64,000 nucleotides of DNA, taken from assembly GCF_950295315.1 (NCBI RefSeq), contig NC_080172.1, positions 112,320,353-112,384,352 of the forward strand, read 5' to 3'. Position numbers and translations under genes: made by a program. A model generated the notes under the pieces. It worked only from the letters and a program-made list of their open reading frames with translations, did no database searches and was not told where the DNA came from. This document shows, piece after piece, positions 1,781 through 56,540 of the stretch. This DNA comes from Erinaceus europaeus. Taxonomy: Eukaryota; Chordata; Mammalia; Eulipotyphla; Erinaceidae. Numbering within the stretch: position 1 is the stretch's first letter; the number at the start of each line of letters is the position of its first letter.

Positions 1781-1912
1781 ATATAGAGAGAGAGACAGAT
1801 AGATATAGATATATAGATAGATATAGATATATATATAAATAGATATATATTGATAAATAGATATAAATATATAGATATAGATATATAGATAGATATAGAT
1901 ATATAGATATAT
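1781..1912. repeat. AT-rich microsatellite (TATA/GATA-like)
   Basis: Impure repeats of 'atagatata' and 'tatata'. It sits where an L1 3' end abuts an L1 ORF2 start, so it probably grew from, or mediated, a deletion joining two L1 parts. Open frames through it are low-complexity Ile/Tyr runs with no meaning. Confidence 0.9.
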
Positions 1913-2236
1913 AATTGTTAAGTCCTCTTGGTTGACTGATCCTTTGAGTGTGAAGTAGTGTCCTATCTTTTTAATCTTACCTATTTTAAAGTCTAACCTG
2001 TCAGATATGAGAATAGCTATTCCTGCCCTTTTTTGTGGGTCATTGGCTTGTATGATAGTCTTCCTTCCTTTCACTTTAAGTCTGTCTTTGTCTTGTTGAG
2101 TTAGGTGTGTTTCCAGTAGAGAGCATATTGTTTGGTTATATTTTCTGATCCATCTTCCTACTCTGTGTCTTTTAATAGGTGAATTCAGGCCATTGACATT
2201 TATTGATATCAAAGATTGAAGATATTTTAACTCCAT
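1913..2236 (-). pseudogene. L1 ORF2 N-terminal remnant (endonuclease start)
   Basis: The minus-strand frame opens with '[17 protein letters not shown]', the typical start of L1 ORF2 endonuclease, and continues with '[15 protein letters not shown]' and '[13 protein letters not shown]'. About 100 codons are preserved before the sequence falls into the AT microsatellite. RT and C-terminal domains are missing here. It follows ORF1 at the usual L1 spacing. Confidence 0.85.
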
Positions 2237-2292
2237 TCTTGTAGAGTTTTAGAGTGTTTTGATATATGTCCTATTTATGGTAGTCTGACAGT

Positions 2293-3257
2293 TTATAGGA
2301 GACCTTTCAGAACTTCTTTCAGGGTAGGCTTGGTGATAGTTGATTCCTTCAACTGTTGCTTGTCTGAGAAGGTTTTGATGCCTCCATCTAGTCTGAATGA
2401 CAGTCTAGCAGGACACACTATTCTTGGTTGAAAGCTTTTCTCATTAAGCACGCAATACATATATCTTATGGCCTGTAGTTTTTGTGTGGAGAAGTCTGCT
2501 GTTAATCTTAGGAGTTTTCCTCTGTAGGTGACTCTTTGTTTTTCTCTTACAGCCTTCAGGATCCTTTCTTTATCCTTATTCCTTTCCATTCTAAGTATGA
2601 TGTTTCTTGGTGTCTTTAAGTCTGGGTTAATTCTGTTTGGGACCCTCCGGGCTTCAGGAATCTTTATGTCTTTGATGTTGTCTAGACTAGAGAAGTTTTC
2701 AGCTATTTTGACCTGAAGAATGCTTTCTTTCTCTCCCCCTCTTTCGTCCTCTGGTAAGCCAATAATGTGTATATTGTTTCCTTTGAAGTCATCTGATAGG
2801 TCTTTGTGGTTGTTTTCAGTATCTCTTAATCTCTATTAGAGATCTCTTACTTCTTTTTTAGTTTTCTCTAATTCATCCTTGACCTTGCTAATTCTGTCTT
2901 CAGCCTCATTGAGTCTATTCTCTCTGCCCTCTACTATTTTTGATGTTCATCTCTTTTGTTACCCTGTTCTGACACTATTTTAGCTTGTTCAACTAGTTGT
3001 GTTCTTAGCTCAGCTATTTCAGCTTTCAGCTCTCTAATAACCTTGAGATAGTTAGTGTTTTCTTCCAGAGTCTCATTTGTTGTTCTTGTATTTCTGATTA
3101 CAATTCTTTCAAACTCTTTGCTCACTCCTGTGATTATTTCCTTAGCTAATATTTGGATGTTGAACTTGTTATTTTGTGCGTCACCCTTTGGGAGGCTATT
3201 AGCTGGACTCTTGTCCTGGTTTGTTTCTCCAATATTTCTTCTTGTTTGTTTCGCCAT
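2293..3257 (-). pseudogene. L1 ORF1 (RNA-binding chaperone), broken
   Basis: The minus-strand reading starts at a Met at 3257 ('MAKQTRRNIGE') and gives a coiled-coil-like region rich in Glu, Lys and Leu ('LKAEIAELRTQLVEQAK'). After a stop at about 2934 it continues into the RRM/C-terminal part ('RNKDKERILKAVREKQRV'). L1 ORF1p binds its own RNA and is needed for retrotransposition. The stop and frame change mean this copy cannot make a full protein. Confidence 0.85.
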
Positions 3258-7455: not shown

Positions 7456-7924
7456 CACCCAAAAGCCAAAAAAATTGAATTTCATGAAATTTTTAATAGC
7501 GATTTACTAATGATCCACAAGATTTTGGGACAGGAAAGATATACTTGCAAACAATTCCTTCCACTAGAGTTCCATAAACCACCCCCTCCATTGAAATTTC
7601 TATATTCTTACTACCTCTAAAAGGAAGATGGTGTCAAAGTTGGAACAGGACTAAGGTGGCTCAGGGCAGAGAGTAGCTCCCAAATAGGAGAAAAGTCTAT
7701 AAATACCATGACCTATAAACTCTCCATCTACGTGACCCCAGGACCCATGTATTTCCTTGTCATCATTTGGATGTGGGAAGTTAATGGTTTACAGTAAAGT
7801 TGTTGCCATGTGAGTCCACTTTCAACTCTTACCTAGATAGGTGTCAGTGAAACATTCTCAGTCCCAAATCAGGTTCATCAATACTACCATTGGCCATATT
7901 TTTTCTTTTTTCCATTGCTACCTA

Positions 7925-11715: not shown

Positions 11716-12155
11716 GACCCTTGCCTCAACTCTGGAGGTCTTCTCAATCAATAACTGGGGGTTTACAGAAGAAGAGTTGACACACCTGTTCCAGAGCCCA
11801 CACATCACTCACCTGAAGGACCTGTGTCTGAGGGGAGTCCCCTTGACCTCTGTCAGTGAGTCCCTGCGAGCTCTACTGGAGATAAATGCAGCCACCCTCC
11901 AGCACCTGGACCTGGGTCTGTGTGGCCTCCAGGACCCCCAGCTAGAGGCCCTGCTCCCTGCCCTGAGCAGCTGCTCCCAGCTCAGCTCCCTCAGCCTGCA
12001 TGGGATCCGCCTATCCATGGCCACCCTGGAGAAGCTGCTGCGCTGCACCTCAGGGCTGCAGCTTGAAAGCTGTCAGGAGCTGCTTGTTGCTGGCTTTGAA
12101 AGTGACTGGGATCCATGTGGATTCAGTCGGCTAGGAAGGATCGTCAGTTTCCCCA

Positions 12156-12773
12156 ATGAATGGGTACTCACGAGATGCACCACGGGAATGTAGATCCAAT
12201 GCTGTCTTTGTTGATCTCACAGCAGCCTATGACACGGTCTGGCACCGTGGTCTCCTAGTCAAGATCTCAAGATGCCTGCCTCCATGGGTGGCCAACACTA
12301 TATCATTTCTTCTCCAAAACAGAAGATTCCAGGTGCATCTGGGTGACAAGTCTAGCAGATGGAGACTTGTCTCAAGTGGCCTCCCCCAGGGCTCTGTTCT
12401 GGCTCCTACGCTATTTAATATTTACATCAATCACCTCCCAGAAACTTCTTCAAGGAAGTTCATCTACGCCGATGACATCTGCTGTGCTACTCAGGCATCC
12501 AAGTTCGACATCCTCGAGGAAACACTCACGAAAGACATGTCTCTGATATCTGATTACTGTAAAAAATGGCGACTAATCCCTAGCACTGCAAAAACGGTAT
12601 CATCTGTTTTCCATCTACACCATGCCTCGGCCTTGCGTGAGCTTAATGTGCAGCTTGGCGATACGAGACTCTGGCATGAAGCCCAGCCAGTGTATCTTGG
12701 CGTTACTCTAGATCGCACTCTCATTTCACAAACATCTCATAAAAACTGCAGCAAAGGTGGGCACGAGGAATAA
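12156..12773 (+). pseudogene. Jockey-like reverse transcriptase, catalytic part
   Basis: The frame shows RT motif A 'VFVDLTAAYDTVWHRGL' with the catalytic Asp, motif B 'SSGLPQGSVLAPTLFNIYI', motif C 'FIYADDICCA' with both Asp residues, and the following 'WRLIPSTAKT' and 'PVYLGVTLDRTL' blocks. This order is typical of the Jockey/CR1/I group rather than of L1. The enzyme copies its own RNA at the nick (target-primed reverse transcription). The upstream RT fingers and the endonuclease are absent, and the frame is lost by a one-base change near 12720-12760, after which reading continues in the next frame. No in-frame stop occurs within the 205 codons. The start shown is only the first available codon; the true protein began upstream. 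Confidence 0.85.
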
Positions 12774-13488
12774 CATCATTGCAAGACTGGCCAGCTCCTC
12801 ATGGGGCGCGAGCACTTCCACACTACGATCATCATCTCTGGCATTATGCTATTCCACTGCAGAATACTGTGCCCCAGTATGGTTCCGTAGCCCCCATGTC
12901 CACTTGGTCGATTCCAAATTATATTCCTCCATGAGGATCATTTCTGGAACCATCCGTTCCACCCCGGTTCCATGGCTGCCAGTTCTTAGCAACATCGCCC
13001 CACCAGATATTCGTCGGGATGCAGCATCATCTAAGTTCATTTCCCACGTCTATGCTCGACCGGACCTGCCAATATACGAGGATATCTTCGCCCACCCTGT
13101 CCAACGCTTGACGTCTCATCACCCAATCTGGTCCCCTATGCCTACACTGAACTTCTATGTTCCAGACTCTTGGAAACAGAGTTGGCAGTCAGCTGAGGTA
13201 AAGAACAAACACCTCATCACAGACCCCTGCAAGCGTCAACCCGGCTTTGACCTAGCACGTTATGATTGGGCTCTCCTCAATCGCTATCAAACAGGCCGTG
13301 GCCGGTGCACTGCTATGTTCCATCGCTGGGGAGCCAGAGACGACCCAAACTGCTCCTGCGGCTCCAGACAGACTACGACCCACATAGTCAACGACTGCCA
13401 CCTCTCCAGATTCAAAGGAGGTCTTGAAACTTTACATAAGGCTCAACCTGAGGCTGTTTACTGGCTACAGAAGAAGGGCAAATGCTAG
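12757..13488 (+). pseudogene. Jockey-like reverse transcriptase, C-terminal part
   Basis: The frame continues the RT thumb and C-terminal domain: 'LCYSTAEYCAPVW', 'WLPVLSNIAPPDIRRDAA', then 'YDWALLNRYQTGRGRC' and a Cys/His cluster 'CSCGSRQTTTHIVNDC' (C-x-C...H-x4-C) seen near the C-terminus of Jockey-type ORF2 proteins. All 243 codons are open and end in TAG at 13486-13488. Together with the preceding frame only one lesion interrupts about 1.3 kb of coding sequence. Confidence 0.85.
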
Positions 13489-13489
13489 A

Positions 13490-14300
13490 AGAATGCTTTA
13501 GTATTGATTCACCAAATTACATGTCAACAGGGGTATAATTCTGGACAGGGGTAGATAGTATCATTGTTATTCAAAGAGATTCTCATGCCTGAGGCTACAA
13601 AGTGCCAGGTTCAATCCTCTGCACTATAAACCAGAGCTCAGCAGTGCTTCCATTAAAAAATAAAAAAGGTGGGGGAGTGGGGTTATAATTCTATAACATT
13701 CCATTGCCAGCATTCTGAATTCCCAATCCCTCCATTGCAAGCCCCAGCAGTTCTCCTAAGGCTGAAGACATGAGTTAACTGTCATCTCTACAGCTATCTA
13801 TATGTATTTGAACACAATGCCCCCTTCTCCAAGTCCCCACCCACTCTTCAATTTCCAAGTCACACATAACCCTGTTCCTACAATCAAAGTTAGGGTTGTT
13901 AAAACATTAATGTTCTTGCTATTGTCAGTAGTATTTAGTAACCATTATGATCTGAGCCTAGAGTCCAACTTTGATACTCCTGGGTGTTGTGATCTTGAGT
14001 TCTGTGAGAGTGTATTGAATACTCCCCAGTGTCACACCCAGTACTGAACGCTTATGTGGCTTCAACTCTACCAATATTTTGATAGGATCACTTCCAGAGT
14101 CAACCACAAGTAGTCTCCAATAGTCAGCCTCTCTACCAGAGGACACAAGGCTACAGCAGAAGAACCTGCACTGACACATCTTGCCTTCAATGGCCATCAC
14201 TCAAACAGTTTTCAGTCTGATGGGCTACATGAGAGTTTTGCCCCACGCCATCTGTTTCAATCTTTGCAAATTATTAATCAATTTTTAGCATTTAAAAAAA
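13490..14300 (+). repeat. Segmental duplication, downstream flank of locus A
   Basis: 13493-14110 recurs inverted at about 37130-37735, upstream of PRAME locus D; shared text includes 'caccaaattacatgtca' and 'acattccattgccagcat'. 14105-14300 recurs directly at 22690-22880. A SINE at 13545-13670 lies inside. Confidence 0.75.
13545..13670 (+). mobile_element. SINE ('gttattcaaa' type)
   Basis: 'ggtagatagtatcattgtt' head, 'caggttcaatcctctgcac' block, A-rich end at 13653-13667. The inverted copy at 37600-37680 has it too, so it predates the duplication. Confidence 0.65.
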
Positions 14301-23425: not shown

Positions 23426-23514
23426 TCATTCATCAATTTTTAGACAGGTTTACCATCCTCTTCAAAGGCAGGAGGAAATTAAATTAATAAATAAATAAGC
23501 AAAAATGATTTATT

Positions 23515-28155: not shown

Positions 28156-28250
28156 GTACCCACACCACGCCCGGCCTGAGGTCTCCGAAACCGCCCAGAC
28201 ACAGGTAAGTGGCATCCGCCCACTTCTGTGGCCCTGCGTTTCCCTCCACC

Positions 28251-29860
28251 ATGGGAAATTTCTCGTTTTATGAGGAGGTGTCCCAGTCATTATCTCTTGA
28301 CCTGGGACAGATTCACGCTGTCATAAACGGTTTAATTTTCACTACCCCTTGGATTTTTTTAACTGTGGTCGCCACTTTCAAGATATGTAAAACGTGGTAT
28401 GCCATAAGGATAAGTGACCTTGAGGCTGAAGTACGAGAGTTAAATCACATGTGCTTAAGACTTAGACGTCCTAAGCGATCAGCGGCTAAACCCAAGAATT
28501 CCGTTCCCACAGACACTCACGTGTTCGGACGCTCCTCCTCTGACCCCGCCCCCTTCCGCCCCGGTTTCAGCTCTGCCTGCAGCTTCTGCATTCCTGAACC
28601 CCACCCCTGCCCCTGCCGCCCTGGTTTCAGCTCCGCCTGCAGCTTTCGTGTCCCTGAACCTCCCCCCCCCGCCCCTGCCGCCCTAGTTTCAGCTCCGCCT
28701 GCAGCTTCCGTGTTCTTGACCCCACCCCGGCCCCTGCCGCCATGGTTTCAGCTCCACCTGAGGTTTCTGCGACCCTGAACCCCCTCCCCTGCCCCTGCCG
28801 CCCCGGTTTCAGCTCCGCCTGCAGCTTCTGCATTCCTGACCCCGCCCAGGCCCCTGCCGCCCTGATTTCAGCTCCGCCCCCGGCCCCTGCCATCGCGGTT
28901 TCAGCTCTGCCTGAGGCTTCCTCGTACCTGACCCTGCCCCCTGCTGATATGTCACCATTAAGGGACCTAGTGGCTGAGATACGAGAGCTAAAGGATATTT
29001 TTTCAGCATTTAAGGATTTTAAACCATGTGCAGTCCACCCCAGGAGCTCCGTCCCCGTAGATATGCGTTTAGTCTCCCCTGCAGCCACTACAGCAGTTTC
29101 TACGGCACTTTCCACTTCTGTAGCTCCCTCTCCCGTGCCATCAGACCAAATCCACACATTCCCGGTAAACTTGGCCCCTTCAAAACAAAACCCTCAGTGG
29201 CAGCCATATTCCTCTAATGAAATTGGAACACTCAAACAAGAAGTCAGGGAGGACGGAATGCATTCTCCATGGACCAAGTCCGTCTTGAGGAGTTTTTACC
29301 AGCATTTAAATTTTAAATACACCACAAGACTGGAAAGATCTGGCTCGTGCTGCACTCCCAGACCCACTCTATCTTCAGTGGCAGGCATGCTTCCGCGATG
29401 AGTGCTCTAGACAATCGCAGAAAAATAGTAACAAACAGGTAGAATGGAATTCTGATGCTTTGTTTGGAGCAGGAGCTTATGAATCTGGAGCTCAGCAGGC
29501 AGAAGCCAGGTTTCCAACCGGTTATTTTGAACAGGTACGCATCTGTGCAACACAAGCATGGGAAAGGGTGACCACACCCGATGTAGATCCGTCAGCTCCC
29601 ATTAACTCTTTTCACCAAGGCTCTGATGAATCATTGGCGAGCTTCATCTCAAGGGTGAAGAGAAGCTTAGAGAGAAAGGTTTATAATCCTGATGTCCGCA
29701 AACTACTCCTGCGCTCTATTGTCTGGGAAGGCATGACACCACAATTCTGTCAGGTATGCCTTAATCTTAAACACCTACACCCAGATAATTGGATTCTAGC
29801 GACACAGGAACTTACATCAGGCAATTATGGGGCACCCGCTATGACACAGGTCTATGCAGT
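28251..29860 (+). pseudogene. gag: ERV gag (matrix to capsid), frame-broken
   Basis: The ATG at 28251 is in good context (ccaccATGg) and followed by Gly ('MGNFSFYEEV'), the usual N-myristoylation signal. A short matrix-like domain with a hydrophobic stretch ('TPWIFLTVVATF') comes first, then a heptad-like segment ('ISDLEAEVRELN'), then a proline-rich minisatellite. After this the frame changes near 28740-28780. A second heptad-like segment and a Ser/Pro-rich linker follow, then capsid. The frame changes again near 29285-29400 inside capsid. The capsid C-terminal part with the major-homology-like 'QGSDESLASFISRVKRSLER' is open from before 29460. It cannot make a complete Gag. Confidence 0.85.
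28560..28945 (+). repeat. GC-rich minisatellite inside gag (unit about 60 bp, about 7 units)
   Basis: Imperfect tandem copies each start near 'ggtttcagctccgcctg' and run through a C-rich tail 'cccctgccgcc'. Copies begin near 28563, 28622, 28685, 28743, 28804, 28863 and 28897; one is shortened. Units are translated as Pro/Ala/Ser-rich peptide in one frame and Cys/Phe-rich peptide in another, because unit lengths are not all multiples of three. Confidence 0.9.
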
Positions 29861-30512
29861 TGCCCCACGTAAGCAAAACAGGGCCTGCTTTCAGTGCGGT
29901 CGCCAAGGACATTGGCGTAACCAATGTCCTGATAAGTTGCGACCACGCCTCCAGTCAGGGAAACCATGCCTCCAGCCAGAGCAACCCTGCTTTCAGTCAG
30001 GGAGCCAGAGACCACGTACTGTTTGTCCAAAATGTCGTAAGGGGTTTCATTGGAAGAGAGATTGTTGGTCCATATTTCATAAAGATGGTTCACCCCTGAA
30101 TGGTACAAATTTGGGGCATGAGATATTGTGGACCACTCCTGTTTTAGAATGGGGCCACCCTTCTATGACAGTAAAGATTGGCAATATTCCTTTTAAATTT
30201 TTTATTGACACGGGGGCAGAAAAGACGATTTTAAGGCAAGAAGAGGTTCCCCAAGATTGGGAACTTATCCCTGGATCCAGTTTACATGGAATAGGAGGGA
30301 TGACCAGAGCATTTTGCACACGAGACTCGCTCATGTGGGAAGACCCAGAAGGTTCTACCGGACACTTCCGCCCTTTGGTAGCTAATATTAGCAACAACTT
30401 ACTGGGCAGGGATCTTCTGGAATGTCTTGATGTTAGGATATCCACAGACACCTCTGCAGAGCGTAAAACTCATTCCCGTGATACCAGGTCTATTCAGCAC
30501 CCCCAATACTAA
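29460..30512 (+). pseudogene. ERV capsid C-terminus, nucleocapsid and protease in one frame
   Basis: A 350-codon open stretch. Capsid C-terminal domain is at residues about 1-120. The nucleocapsid has two zinc knuckles, 'CFQCGRQGHWRNQC' and 'CPKCRKGFHWKRDC' (the second has Phe-His in place of the usual Gly-His), separated by Gln/Pro/Cys-rich short repeats. An aspartic protease follows with active-site 'FIDTGAEKTIL' and a C-terminal 'NNLLGRDLLECL' block. In related betaretroviruses gag and pro are in different frames joined by ribosomal frameshifting; here they run on without a shift. No dUTPase domain is seen between nucleocapsid and protease. The beginning given is only the first Met; capsid reading extends upstream. 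Confidence 0.88.
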
Positions 30513-30571
30513 ATGCCACTGTTCGTAGCCAAACACCCCACTTAAGCTGGCTTTCTAATGAGCCTGTCTGG

Positions 30572-31726
30572 GTGGAACAGTGGCCTTTAACTAGGGATAA
30601 GCTAAAAATTTTAAAAGAGCTCATCCGAGAGCAGTTGTCCTTGGGACACATTCATCATTCTCGAAGCCCATGGAATACTCCTGTCTTTGTGATTAAAAAG
30701 CGCTCAGGAAAATGGCGCCTCCTTCAAGATCTCCGTGCAGTAAATAAAACCATGCAGGTCTGGGGCTCCCCCCAAAGGGGTTTGCCTCTTGCTTCTGCAA
30801 TTCCCATGGGAATTCCAATCATAGCTATTGATATACAAGATTGTTTTTTCTCTATCCCCTTGCATCCACAAGATTGTAAACATTTTGCCTTCTCTGTTCC
30901 GTCTATTAATAACACCAGCCCTGCTGATAGATTTGAATGGGTGGTGCTGCCCCAGGGTATGGCCAATAGTCCTATAATTTGTCAGGAGGCTGTTAAATCT
31001 GCCCTTGTCCCATATATTCATAAGGGCCTTACTATTTTTCATTATACAGATGATACTTTAATATGGGGAAAATCAGATACAGATCTCTATGCCTTACGTG
31101 ATTTTCTCATTCCTGCATTAAAGAAAAGTAGCCTTAATGTAGCCCCTGAGAAGATACAGCTAATCCCTCCAATATCCTTCCTAGGTTCATAGATTTCTCT
31201 AATGCAAATTCGTCCCTTAAAACCTAATGTTACCTTCCCTTCTAACCTTACTTTTGCTTCTTTACAAAGTTTTCTAGGAAATTTAAATTGGCTTAGGCAG
31301 TATCTCTATCTGCCCACAAGCTGCCTCCAACCACTGTTTGACCTGTTGAAAGGAAACAAACAGCCCTCTTCAAAACGTAAGTTAACTCCTGAGGCCTCCT
31401 TGGCACTGGAAAGGGTTAACCAGGCCCTCCAGGACACGCACCTTGTTCGATTTTCCCCCTCCTCTCCGGTAAACCTTCTAATCTTCAACTCCACCCCCAC
31501 AGTAGTAGGGGCACTGTGGCAAGACCATGGGGTTCTCGAATGGCTTCACACACCAGTAGGAGGAGCTCCAAGACTCCTCACTGAGATAGACGCATTAGCA
31601 TTCATGGTTCGCCAAAGGAGAAATAGGTCTTTGCAGGTCTTAGGGAAGGAACCGGATTTAATCATTCTGCCCTTTTCTCTCACAGATACAAAGTGGCTTA
31701 TACGCCATCATTCCCACTTTCCATAA
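30572..31726 (+). pseudogene. pol: ERV reverse transcriptase, one in-frame stop
   Basis: The pol frame is -1 relative to the gag-pro frame and is open upstream of 30572 into the protease end, as expected for frameshift-linked pro-pol. RT motifs seen: 'SPWNTPVFVIKKRSGKWRLL', 'AIDIQDCFFSIPLHPQDC' (motif A Asp), 'LPQGMANSPIICQ', and the catalytic box as 'YTDDTLIW'. Thr stands where related viruses usually have Met or Val. A stop TAG at 31190-31192 follows the palm. The frame then continues through the connection domain to 31726. The enzyme would copy viral RNA into DNA in the virion core. Confidence 0.88.
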
Positions 31727-32652
31727 GCTTCGTGGGGTTTCCAGGACAAATAGATAACCATTTTCCTTCTAATAAATTGATAGCTTCTTTACCTCTTCTG
31801 CCTCTACTAGCCCCTAAACTTTTCTCTCGGGATCCCATTCCCTCTGCTCCTACAGTCTTCACTAATGGTGGAAAAAAAGGAGCTGCTGCCCTTATATATT
31901 ACCCAGACAAACAATCTCCTAAACCTCTCTTTACTGAGCTTCCTGATAATTCCCCTCAGTACAAAGAACTTTATGCTGTTTTTCTTGCACTAAAAGCTGT
32001 ACCAGAATCCTTCAACCTTTTTTCTGACAGTGTGTATACTGTTAACTTACTTCCATGGCTTGCTCGTTCTTATGTGAAAATTGATGACAACCCACTTTCC
32101 CCTCTCTTGATTCAAATCGCCTCTATGCTCTGTTCTCGAACCCAACCACTGTATATTCCACACCTTCATTCCCACAGCCCTTTTCCTGGTTCCCTGTCTG
32201 AAGGGAATGCTGCAGTTGACTGCCTTGCCTCCACAGGAACTTTCCCAGTCTCTGTCTCTGATCCTGCTAATTTTCATTCTCTAACCCATGTTAATCTTAA
32301 AGGCCTTCGAGCTCGATTCCCTGATGTTCCTGTACCACAGTTAAAACATATCCTTGCTACATGCTCTTCTTGTGCAAGTCTTATAAAGACACCTGCTATC
32401 CATACCCTTGGGGTTAACCCCCGAGGTTTAAAAGCTAATGCTATTTGGCAAATTGATGTCACCCACATACCAAACTTTGGCAAACAAAAATATGTGTTTG
32501 TCTCAATTGATACCTTTTCTAAATTTATGTGGGCTATAGCTCAGACAGGAGAAAGTGTTAAAAAGCTTTTAAGCCATATGCTCTCTTTGTTTTGCCGTTA
32601 TGGGGGTCCCATTATTTTTGAAAACAGACAATACACCTATGTTTACAAGTAA
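31693..32652 (+). pseudogene. pol: ERV RNase H and integrase N-terminal part
   Basis: A frameshift near 31690-31726 moves pol into another frame. RNase H shows 'VFTNGGKKGAAAL', where the first catalytic Asp is replaced by Asn, then 'QYKELYAVFLAL' (Glu), 'LFSDSVYTVNLL' (Asp) and 'SEGNAAVDCLAS' (Asp). The integrase zinc domain HHCC follows (His pair in 'NFHSLTHVNLK', Cys pair in 'CSSC'), then the core with 'WQIDVTHIPNFGKQKYVFV' (first Asp of DDE). The frame fails again near 32620-32650. Confidence 0.87.
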
Positions 32653-33133
32653 ACAATTTAAAGATTTTTGTTCCCTCTGGAATATTACTCATACCACGGG
32701 CATTCCCTACAATCCACAGGGACAAGGCATTGTCGAGAGGGCCCATCAAACTCTGAAGGCTCAACTAAATAAAGATAAAGGAGGAACATATCCCCCCAAT
32801 ATCCAGCTAGCAAAAGCCTTAACTACGTTAAATCTGTTTAATATTTACAATAACTCAGACTTACCCCCTATTATTCTTCACTGGCAAACACCATCTACCC
32901 TCCCATCTATTAAGGTCAAATGGAGAGACCCACTCTATAAAATTTGGAAAGGGCCTGACCCATTATTGACCATGGGGAGGGGGTTCGCATGCATTTTCCC
33001 TCAAAATTTCTCTAAACCTGTCTGGGTTCCTGCCCGCCATGTCCAACAATACCCACAGGATGGTGCTGTTATTCCTCAAGAACAAGAAATACTACAAGAG
33101 GACCAGATGCAGGATACATCCCAGGACCCGTAA
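32600..33133 (+). pseudogene. pol: ERV integrase core end and C-terminal domain
   Basis: Picks up integrase after the frameshift: 'FLKTDNTPMFTSKQF' (second Asp) and 'QGIVERAHQTLKAQL' (Glu) complete the DDE triad. The C-terminal domain includes 'VKWRDPLYKIWKGPDPLL' and 'FSKPVWVPARHVQQ', typical of class II elements. It ends with an acidic Gln-rich tail and TAA at 33131-33133. Confidence 0.87.
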
Positions 33134-46974: not shown

Positions 46975-49378
46975 GTGAGTGTGTCCCAGAGAGCCTGGTT
47001 GGGTGATGGGTGTCTATCAGTCAGTGGGATGAGGGAGTGTGGAGGCCCCTGGGGTGGATCAATAGCCAATGAGATAGCCCTGCTGTGCTCTGTTTGGAGA
47101 TGCCCTATGAGTGTGGGGTGGCTTAAGTGCAGGGGAAACTGAGATGTCATCATGTCTTGCCTCATTAAGTGTTTCTGAGAAGCTCTGGATGAGTACGCAG
47201 GATGAAGGGGACAAACGGGAGAACTAGCAGGTTATAGGAAGAGACAACATTGGTCCGGGATGTGAAGACAGACACAGAATGTGCAGAGGCAGACACTCAC
47301 AACATTGCAAAATCCTGACACTCTGAGTTTCTCATCTACGTTCTGTTTCCTGCAAAGGAGATGTAAGCTGCAGGTCCTGGATTTACGGAATACTGGTCAG
47401 GAGTTCTGGACTGGGAGGACCGGAATCAAGCTCAGTGGACACTCACCCAGAGTAGAGCCACAGACCTCTCAGTGCTCAAGGATGAAGAAGCAAAGTCCGT
47501 TGCTGGAGATTTTTACAAGACTTCATGTCCATGATTGGTGCCCTGATTCTTTCTCCTCCTACCTCCTGGAGTGGGTGAAGAAGAGGAAAGCTGTACATGT
47601 GTGTTTTGTGAAAGTGACAATTGTGTCAGTACTCTCGTCGAGCTGTAGGTTTCAGTATGCAGAGCTGTTGTGTATCAAGGAGTTGGAAGTCTACAACACT
47701 TGGACACTCCCTACCCTGAAAATGTTTGCTCATCTGATGGGAAAGATGAAAAATTTGAAGAAACTCACTCTCCGCATCCACACTCCTGCTGCAACCACCC
47801 ACGAAGAGCTTGAGCTTGGAAGACGGTGTGTTTCCCAGTTCACCTCTCAGTTTCTGCACCTAAGACACCTCACAGAGTTGTATCTTCAGTCTCCCTCATT
47901 CCTGCAGGGCCATCTGGAACAGCTCCTCAGGTAAGATTGGGGCCGTTGTCTGTAACACTGAAGTAGACGCTATCTCTCACTTTCCTCTTTCCTGAAGGGG
48001 GGCATCGAATAATCCCCCAAAGCAAGATGAGGTACAAACAGCCATATCATGTGGAATCATGGTCATATAATAGGAAGTTTCTGGTGGGGCATGTAGTCTA
48101 GTGAGCACAAGAGTGTGAATTCTCAGAATGGACATCAGAGCTGAGCTAGAATAATGACTAAGTGAAGAAGGCAGGTGAGTGGGCTCAGCACTATGCCTGA
48201 GATCTCCACACACAGGCCCTGTGCTCACCAGATTGTGAGCAGGAAGAAGCCTGTCTCAGATTCCCCTGTCCATCTCTGTCCATGCAGCCTGGAGAATGGC
48301 AGGCCGGGCATGTTGAGGAGGAGTCTATGGGATCAACAGGAGTGACAAGTGTGGAGAGGATTATTGAGGATGTGGGGTACTCACTAAAAGTGAGCGATAC
48401 TGGAATTCTAGTCAATGGGGTGTCACCTGCCTAGGTTAGGATATCCCATGAGATTTGGATATTCACAGAGTCTAATTGGAGGCACTAAAGAAGTTTTTCT
48501 CTCCATTGTTGTAATCTAGAAGAACACAATTGATAGAGATAATTAATCATATACTTTCTAAATTACTGAAGTATGTTTTCCTGTTTGACAGAGGAGATAA
48601 AGGAGTTTTAGACATTATGTTGTCTTGAACCATCAGCATTATGGTGGTGGTTGGGGGTGCTGCCTATTGAATTCCATCAAGTAGTCAGAGCAAACTCATC
48701 AGATCCAAAAATAGGAGGGCTACCACCTGTCCTATCTCTATTCAGCAGAGCTAACACTTCTCTTCTCTTCCCAGGAGGCTTGTCACCCCCCTGGAGATCT
48801 TGTCACTCACTAACTGCACATTAACAGAAGGAGACTTGGTACATCTGTTCCAGAGCCCACACATAAGTCACCTGAAGGAACTGTGTCTGAGAGGAGTCCC
48901 CCTGACCTCTGTCAGTAATCCCCTGAGAGCTCTGCTGGAGGTAAATGCAGCCACCCTCCAGCACCTGGACCTGGGTCTGTGTGGCCTCCAGGACCCCCAG
49001 CTTGAGGCCCTGCTCCCTGCCCTGAGCAGCTGCTCCCAGCTCAACTCCCTCAGCCTGCATGGGAACCGCCTGTCCATGGCCACCCTGGAGAAGCTGCTGC
49101 GCTGCACCTCGGGCCTCAGAAGGTTGAGAAAAGAGATCTATCCGGCCCCTCTGGAAAGTTTCAGCTCCCAAGGGACTCTCCTCCCTGAAATATTTGATGT
49201 GCTTTGTTCTCAATTTTTAAGGGTCTTGAGAGATATAGGCTGCCCCAGGACCATCTTGGTGAGCCCTAAACCCTGTCTTTCCGGAATGCTGATGTTAGGG
49301 AACTGGGTTGTGACAGTATCCTGCAGTAACTGCCTACATCACTCTAAGAAGCTGTCCTTTGGGCTCTCAGAAAACTGA
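46682..49378 (+). CDS. PRAME-family protein, intact (489 aa, three coding exons)
   Basis: Join of 46682-46974, 47358-47930 and 48775-49378 gives 489 codons plus stop with all junctions in phase. Donors are gtgagt and gtaaga; acceptors are AAAG/GAG and CCCAG. The N-terminal segment 'LQNLAIESLVRNKELAIDAL' and 'FFPPLFLEAY...AMVPAWPFPYLPLG' is the PRAME signature. Exon 2 holds the middle LRR region ('FTSQFLHLRHLTELYLQSPS'). Exon 3 holds the leucine-rich core ('LEILSLTNCTLTEGDLVHL', 'LCGLQDPQLEALLPALSSC') and tail ('PAPLESFSS'). Length is in the usual PRAME range (about 470-510). Known members are germline-biased and act as cullin-2 ubiquitin ligase receptors or transcription regulators. Which PRAMEF member this is cannot be told here. 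The exon 2 acceptor could be three bases later. Confidence 0.9.
47358..47930 (+). other. PRAME locus C coding exon 2
   Basis: Preceded by a pyrimidine tract 'ttctgtttcctgcaaag' and followed by donor gtaaga. Open throughout; about 192 residues. Confidence 0.85.
48775..49378 (+). other. PRAME locus C coding exon 3
   Basis: Acceptor 'ttctcttcccag' at 48763-48774; TGA at 49376-49378. Contains the leucine-rich core that is almost the same in loci A, B and D. Confidence 0.9.
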
Positions 49379-55751: not shown

Positions 55752-56540
55752 TTAATATATGTCCTGTATCCTGTTGGCTAAAATTTTGGTCATTATTTTA
55801 GCATCTATGTTCATAAGAGATATTGGTCTGTAGTTTTCTTTTTTGGTTGTGTCTCTGTCTGCTTTTGGTATCAAAGTGATGTTGGCTTCATAGAAGCTGG
55901 CAGGGAGTATTCCAGTGTCTTCAATCTTCTGGAAGACTTTTAAAAGTAGAGGGATTAGTTCTTCTTTGAAGGTTTTGTAGAATCCATTTGTAAAACCATC
56001 TGGTCCAGGACTTTTATTTTTGGGAAGATTGTTGATAATTCTTTCAATTTCATTTGCTGTGATGAGCCTGTTCATGTTACCTAGTTCCTCTTTACTTCAT
56101 TTCAGAAGTTGGTAGGTATCTAGGAAATCGTCCATTTCTTCCAGGTTATCTAGCTTGGAGGCATATAGTTGTTCATAGAAGCCTCGCATGATATACTGAA
56201 TTTCTGCTGTGTCTGTTGCGATATCTCCTCTTTCACTTAGGATCCGACTTATTTGGGTCTTCTCCCTTTTTTGTTTTGTGGGTCTGGCTAAAGGTTTGTC
56301 AATTTTGTTCACTCTTTTGAAGAACCAACATTTACTTTTGTTGATCTTTTGTATGATTTTCTTATTTTCAATGTGATTGATTTCTGCCCTAACTTTAATT
56401 ATTTCTGTCCTTCTGGTTGCTTTAGGGTTCCTTTGTTCCTCTTCTTCTTCTAGGTCTTTAAGATGTACAATCAGGCTGTTTATTTGTGCTTTTTCTTGTT
56501 TCCTAATGTGTGCTTGTATGGCTATGAACTTCCCTTTCAA
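55752..56540 (-). pseudogene. L1 ORF2 pre-RT and RT start
   Basis: Frames 56540-56097 and 56075-55752 carry '[18 protein letters not shown]' and '[20 protein letters not shown]'. A stop between them and decay downstream make it non-functional. Confidence 0.88.

Follow-up and report, generated by a model that had tools for sequence, protein, structure and literature searches.

The window, by which we mean the whole stretch of DNA that was analysed (64,000 nucleotides of the European hedgehog, Erinaceus europaeus), holds PRAME sequence, remains of other retroelements and, between two pieces of PRAME array, the LINE copy that is the subject of this work. A PRAME gene copy lies at 47266-49378, with two exon pieces that are jointly 100% identical over 313 aa to PRAME family member 12-like of Erinaceus europaeus. 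The stretch 28209-33133 is a broken retrovirus-like sequence, in which separate open pieces match the Gag_p24, retroviral protease, RVT_1, RNase H and integrase domains, and among the several L1 copies of the window are minus-strand remains of an ORF1 (2293-2832, matching Transposase_22) and of a reverse transcriptase (RT; 55752-56096).

Structure of the window copy

The LINE copy is a dead, 5'-inverted partial copy of an element of about 3.1 kb with one ORF. It consists of two arms in opposite orientations, flanked by PRAME sequence on both sides (coordinates are those of the window, whereas positions within the element are introduced by "nt"; L017 and L020 are longer copies elsewhere in the genome):

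11720..12058, plus strand: left flank, a PRAME exon copy cut by the insertion (from genomic paralogues)
12059..12202, minus strand: 5' end of the LINE, inverted arm (blastn against the L020 copy, nt 7-149, 95.8%)
12159..12722, plus strand: RT frame with motifs A, B and C (tblastn to residues 527-710 of the L017 ORF; RVT_1, E=2.4e-18)
12200..13493, plus strand: 3' part of the LINE, sense arm (blastn against L020, nt 1783-3078, 95.8% over 1,296 columns)
12718..13482, plus strand: C-terminal frame with the Cys/His stretch (tblastn to residues 710-964 of the L017 ORF, 93.7%)
13486..13493, plus strand: stop codon, followed directly by the start of the AAG tail, with no 3' untranslated region (from the 3' ends of the compared copies)
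13494..14100, plus strand: right flank, from elsewhere in the PRAME array and not the continuation of the exon (from genomic paralogues)

The two arms share 3 nt at their junction. The bases of 12059-12202 recur at other genomic 5' ends, continuing antisense into the start of the ORF. An earlier note on this DNA, made from the letters alone, had placed a retrotransposon at 12062..13489; an element is indeed there, with its edges at about 12059 and about 13493, but 12059-12202 is the element's own 5' end in antisense and does not belong to the RT frame. For the same reason, the possibility that the window copy belongs to a non-autonomous deletion family was ruled out, the shared 142 bp being that antisense 5' end.

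Two open frames, 12135-12773 and 12712-13488, overlap within the copy; the first gave the RVT_1 match in a Pfam search, and the same search with the second gave no match. The motifs were read directly from the sequence: motif A is VFVDLTAAYDTVW, GLPQGS (12378-12395) and YADD (12465-12476) are both intact, and the Cys/His stretch near the C-terminus lies at 13351-13398, so that the RT motifs and the C-terminal Cys/His motif of the earlier note are all present. The C-terminal frame is out of phase with the RT frame, and the sense piece measures 1,294 nt against 1,296 nt in the L017 copy, which accounts for the single frameshift that the earlier note reported. Also borne out was the high CpG content, the observed/expected ratio being 0.58 within the element and 0.16 in the window outside it. 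Since nt 150-1782, including the endonuclease, are absent, the window copy cannot supply a full protein of its own. Comparing the element with the window by blastn (E up to 1e-5) gave no match outside the two arms, and a protein-level search found, beyond the copy, two weak matches only, both in L1 fragments.

A young and abundant family in the hedgehog genome

The full element, as measured on L020, is about 3.08 kb long, with a single ORF of about 1,000 aa that begins about 100 nt in; in the compared copies its TAG stop is followed immediately by AAG repeats. The ORF of L017 (965 aa) matches Exo_endo_phos, Exo_endo_phos_2 and RVT_1, all above their cut-offs; the remaining domain match, to DDT (E=0.09), falls under its cut-off, and RNase H gave no match in this ORF at E up to 1.

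Searching the hedgehog genome with the C-terminal frame of the window copy returned 147 scored matches from 37,928 loose candidates and, the copy itself excluded, these are 91-95% identical to the query, many with long open frames. From the loci of this search and 20 longer stretches, we assembled a compared set of 24 distinct copies, the one in the window included. Counted by its 3' end, the family is far from rare in its host: a 3'-end pattern of 33 bases was found at 23,482, 39,181 and 39,952 places of the European hedgehog genome with 0, at most 2 and at most 3 mismatches, respectively, and a 34-base 5'-end pattern (at most 2 mismatches) at 7,911 places, both counts taking in short derivatives. 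The reversed control of the 3'-end pattern was found at 0 places at each mismatch level, and that of the 5'-end pattern also at 0.

When a truncated Poisson is fitted to the proportion of 3' ends that match exactly, each pattern carries 0.53 changes, or 1.6-1.7% per site; the fit predicts 15,882 ends with one or two mismatches, where 15,699 were observed. Because the counts lie near one Poisson, the family appears to be mainly one young wave; the excess at three mismatches (771 observed, 596 predicted) indicates that a small older fraction may exist, and the probe is blind to a much diverged older form of the family. The mean pairwise distance among the 24 copies, which as best matches are biased toward young ones, is 3.3% overall and 1.6% without CpG columns. 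With a mammalian substitution rate near 2.2e-9 per site per year, the wave would be roughly 4-8 million years old, with a wide error. The earlier note's view of a young non-L1 LINE in a placental mammal thus holds, as seen in the one ORF, the AAG tail and 3'-end counts that fit mainly one young wave; such an abundant element is unusual there, yet has been in print since 2011.

The 5' ends include those of short derivatives. Among 40 exact 5' ends sampled on one contig (the first 20 listed per strand on C1), 14 belong to short elements of about 100-200 bp in which the 5' end is fused to the 3' end, nine run into a different internal deletion, and in the remaining 17 no other piece of the element was seen (13 reach the end of the examined stretch and four stop before it). 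Breakpoints recur among the short elements, with 149-152/3028 common to five (L067, L072, L078, L084 and L086) and 117/3042 common to four (L079, L080, L094 and L096). By raw count, direct repeats of at least 8 nt lie at the edges of 11 of the 14 short elements.

Identity, relatives and origin of the family

LINE clades differ in the make-up of their proteins and in their tails. L1 carries an ORF1 with Transposase_22 and ends in a poly(A) tail, Jockey and CR1 place a gag-like or similar ORF ahead of a second one, and the Vingi clade encodes a protein with an APE-type endonuclease and an RT, differing from Ingi, to which RT phylogeny places it as sister, by the absence of an RNase H domain. Kojima, Kapitonov and Jurka are said to have described Vingi in 2011 as a clade sister to Ingi and without RNase H, to have reported 11 non-autonomous families, and to have found Vingi absent from 33 other mammals, implying horizontal transfer.

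The hedgehog element differs from L1 in its single ORF and AAG tail, the hedgehog L1 itself being recognisable in the window by the Transposase_22 match of its ORF1 piece. A Jockey or CR1 retrotransposon, as the earlier note had it, would share both the endonuclease-RT protein and its C-terminal Cys/His stretch, traits common to these two clades. Their two-ORF plan is, however, hard to reconcile with a single ORF that has about 100 nt ahead of it, leaving no room for a first ORF of the Jockey or CR1 kind, and no nucleotides between it and the tail; we therefore consider this assignment very improbable. One ORF with endonuclease and RT and with no RNase H match is what is recorded for Vingi, and the element agrees with the record of the hedgehog Vingi in particular. 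Its host, its youth and abundance, its endonuclease-RT architecture without RNase H and its short derivatives formed through internal deletion make Vingi-1_EE the most likely identity of the family, as judged from published descriptions. By these descriptions no difference from Vingi-1_EE was found, apart from the window copy itself being 5'-inverted and dead, and the short elements with joined 5' and 3' ends agree with the Vingi-1N families, which are non-autonomous.

It is almost certain that the family has been published before, with Vingi in hedgehogs and its likely horizontal transfer in print since 2011: in the passages available, Kojima, Kapitonov and Jurka 2011 is cited for Vingi or Vingi-1_EE (PMC3183009, PMC5753468, PMC3391268), and Vingi-1N3_EE is given 311 copies under 1% divergence in Erinaceus europaeus (PMC3183009). 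A 2025 paper on the African hedgehog tabulates, in the part of its text covered here, 4,476 I-Jockey copies (PMC12026660), which may or may not be of the same family as the window element; the word Vingi was not found in that part of the paper (PMC12026660).

Relatives were sought by protein searches with the C-terminal piece (128 matches, 120 of them listed) and with the full ORF (3,001 matches from 7,975 candidates scored, 120 listed). Among the matches listed, the highest identity of rows covering at least 97% of the query is 57% for the full ORF and 56% for the C-terminal piece; also among those listed for the C-terminal piece, rows covering at least 85% of it are 50-53% identical (eel, turtle and coelacanth), partial rows reach 58% (eel) and 65% (carp), and the best partial row (P0064) shows 67% over 37%. 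These proteins of eel, carp, coelacanth and turtle, for which the name Vingi is our inference, are the same protein, but are too distant for a recent donor. One row stands apart, P0245, a contig of 2,072 bases that is 96% identical over 58% of the full ORF and is probably hedgehog DNA.

A tree was built from 37 rows: the hedgehog element, P0245, 14 named relatives and 21 further ones selected from the match lists. It was rooted at the midpoint, 12 of its rows fill under half of the columns, and it comprises the element's relatives only. A 100/100 branch sets apart 20 rows, including the hedgehog and all five named vertebrates (fish, coelacanth and turtle), from a side that holds the tunicate and every one of the eight rows from named arthropods. 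Closest to the hedgehog pair stand the proteins P0001 and P0002 (98/96). An arthropod donor is thus not favoured, though an arthropod could have been the carrier, and the branching is compatible with vertical descent as well as with transfer.

That the founder arrived by horizontal transfer is likely on published grounds, Vingi in hedgehogs being counted, in the passages available, among the older likely horizontal transfers common to several species (PMC3183009). Vingi could instead have been inherited vertically in mammals and recently reawakened in hedgehogs. The clustering of the hedgehog row with vertebrate rows, the turtle among them, would suit such a history, as would the human X12_LINE, classed as Vingi (PMC5753468, in part), and the one pre-amniote Vingi fossil listed for human (PMC9004415, in part). 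Against it stand 3'-end counts that show mainly one young wave (obtained with a probe that misses a much diverged older form), the likely horizontal transfer stated for the hedgehog Vingi (PMC3183009, in part) and the reported absence from 33 other mammals; altogether, we regard purely vertical descent as the less probable course, although one that keeps appreciable weight. Since the wave spans so narrow an age, the genomes of other insectivores offer a direct test of the transfer that has been proposed.

Integration and 5' inversion

Among the 25 copies for which both flanks could be compared, 15 have direct repeats of at least 8 nt when 6 element bases are allowed per side, although in at least two of the 15 (L014 and L027) the repeats lie away from the edge; in the flanks alone, repeats of at least 7 nt occur at 11 of the 25 copies, against 25 of 600 mismatched pairs. 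These integration marks, together with the copy number, rule out that the element entered the assembly as contaminating DNA of a parasite or another foreign source, the chance of which we take to be practically nil: the 39,952 3' ends are spread across the assembly, target-site duplications accompany many copies, and a hedgehog gene at 100% match shares the window with the element. The earlier note had likewise argued against simple contamination, and the 120.4-Mb contig C89, on which the window occupies 112320353-112384352, the target-site duplications at other copies and the roughly 40,000 3' ends agree with this.

The window copy itself shows no target-site duplication, either with element bases allowed or in the flanks alone. 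Of the paralogues of its left flank among the matches listed, the closest (L054, 95.4% over 1,844 nt) continues without the element, and the paralogues L050-L052, which align with the right flank starting at 13492 (92-93% over about 2.15 kb), are likewise free of the element. Because the flanks derive from different parts of the PRAME unit, target DNA would have been lost or rearranged, at or after the insertion. Four of the 27 exon paralogues listed on the window's own contig (C89) are followed, 13.8-14.7 kb downstream and with unchanged orientation, by the right-flank sequence, whereas at others it lies at different distances or in different orientations, so that a target deletion of about 14 kb is only a suggestion.

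Inverted copies are not confined to the window. Three of the 24 compared copies are inverted, namely the window's, L011 (inverted nt 5-972, sense arm from nt 976) and L021 (inverted nt 3-182, sense arm from nt 1323), and probes containing the 5' end yielded six further ones (L030-L034 and L041; the 3' end of L034 lies beyond the examined stretch). In all nine the inverted arm terminates at nt 1-7, which is partly due to selection in the six found by probe and is unselected in the window copy (nt 7), L011 (nt 5) and L021 (nt 3). Direct repeats surround both arms of L011 (13 nt), L033 (11 nt) and L021 (9 nt, purine-rich), with lengths of 7, 6 and 9 nt, respectively, when only bases outside the element are taken. 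Inversions are a minority, since one of 14 further places (L035-L048) and none of the 40 exact 5' ends sampled on C1 are inverted.

We are highly confident that the window copy is a 5'-inverted partial copy of this LINE of about 3.1 kb with one ORF and about 40,000 3' ends, most likely Vingi-1_EE, and that it was likely formed by target-primed reverse transcription with twin priming. Starting at the AAG tail, on one nicked strand of the target, copying of the RNA would have reached about nt 1783; a second priming on that RNA, by the other strand of the target at around nt 149, would have been extended to the RNA's 5' end; and the two cDNAs may then have been joined via the 3-nt overlap. Twin priming is the process that makes 5' inversions in L1 (Ostertag and Kazazian 2001, cited after PMC4245944, in the portion available). 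The hedgehog copies resemble L1 5' inversions in their antisense 5' arm, their sense 3' arm and the target-site duplications at several copies, and differ from them in being made by a non-L1 LINE.

The inverted form could also stem from a later event involving two adjacent copies, either a recombination or an inversion between them. At the window copy, the missing target-site duplication and the flanks from different parts of the PRAME array do indicate that rearrangement occurred there. Such an origin is nevertheless difficult to fit to L011, where inverted nt 5-972 and the sense arm from nt 976 onward lie inside one 13-nt direct repeat, or to L021 and L033, where repeats likewise surround both arms, and the inverted arm ends at nt 3-7 in three copies that were not selected by their 5' end. 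We therefore hold twin priming to be the better explanation, recombination being improbable. More tentatively, with the balance only slightly in favour, we propose that the hedgehog Vingi, a recent invader of vertebrate stock, makes twin-primed 5' inversions in the L1 style, for which no L1-specific protein feature would be needed, the mammalian host being what decides.

The presence of L1 and Vingi, two unrelated LINE machineries active in one germ line, amounts to a natural experiment, in which it can be asked whether the element or the host sets 5' inversion, truncation and target choice. The literature searched, of partial coverage and without Kojima et al. 2011, contained no description of Vingi inversions, and an inverted class in a non-L1 mammalian LINE may be new, as may the counts made across the whole of a chromosome-scale assembly and the position on the vertebrate side of the tree.

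Used as a search pattern, the inversion junction of the window copy was found at four places in the genome, one of them at 3 mismatches; besides the window, these are G000:C4:151400133-151400167, C93:42311807-42311841 and C85:7549587-7549621 (0, 1 and 3 mismatches, respectively). The outer ends of copies sharing the junction differ (nt 149 in the window copy, 122 in L033 and 1644 in L030), so that the same join may have formed repeatedly at a 3-nt overlap. With the junction at only four places and different outer ends in the three copies examined, a multiplied inverted subfamily was not upheld.

Further observations concern the PRAME arrays. The right-flank segment 13680-14100 is 97-98% identical to seven places on another contig (C87) and at most 93% identical to the other places listed on its own (C89), which suggests exchange between PRAME arrays. 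Shortly upstream of the window lie two more Vingi copies, L025 (G000:C89:112287742-112295506) and L026 (112312193-112319957), both truncated at nt 905, 0.5% apart and in opposite orientations with near-identical 3' flanks, which gives them the appearance of paired arms in an inverted segmental duplication within the PRAME array.
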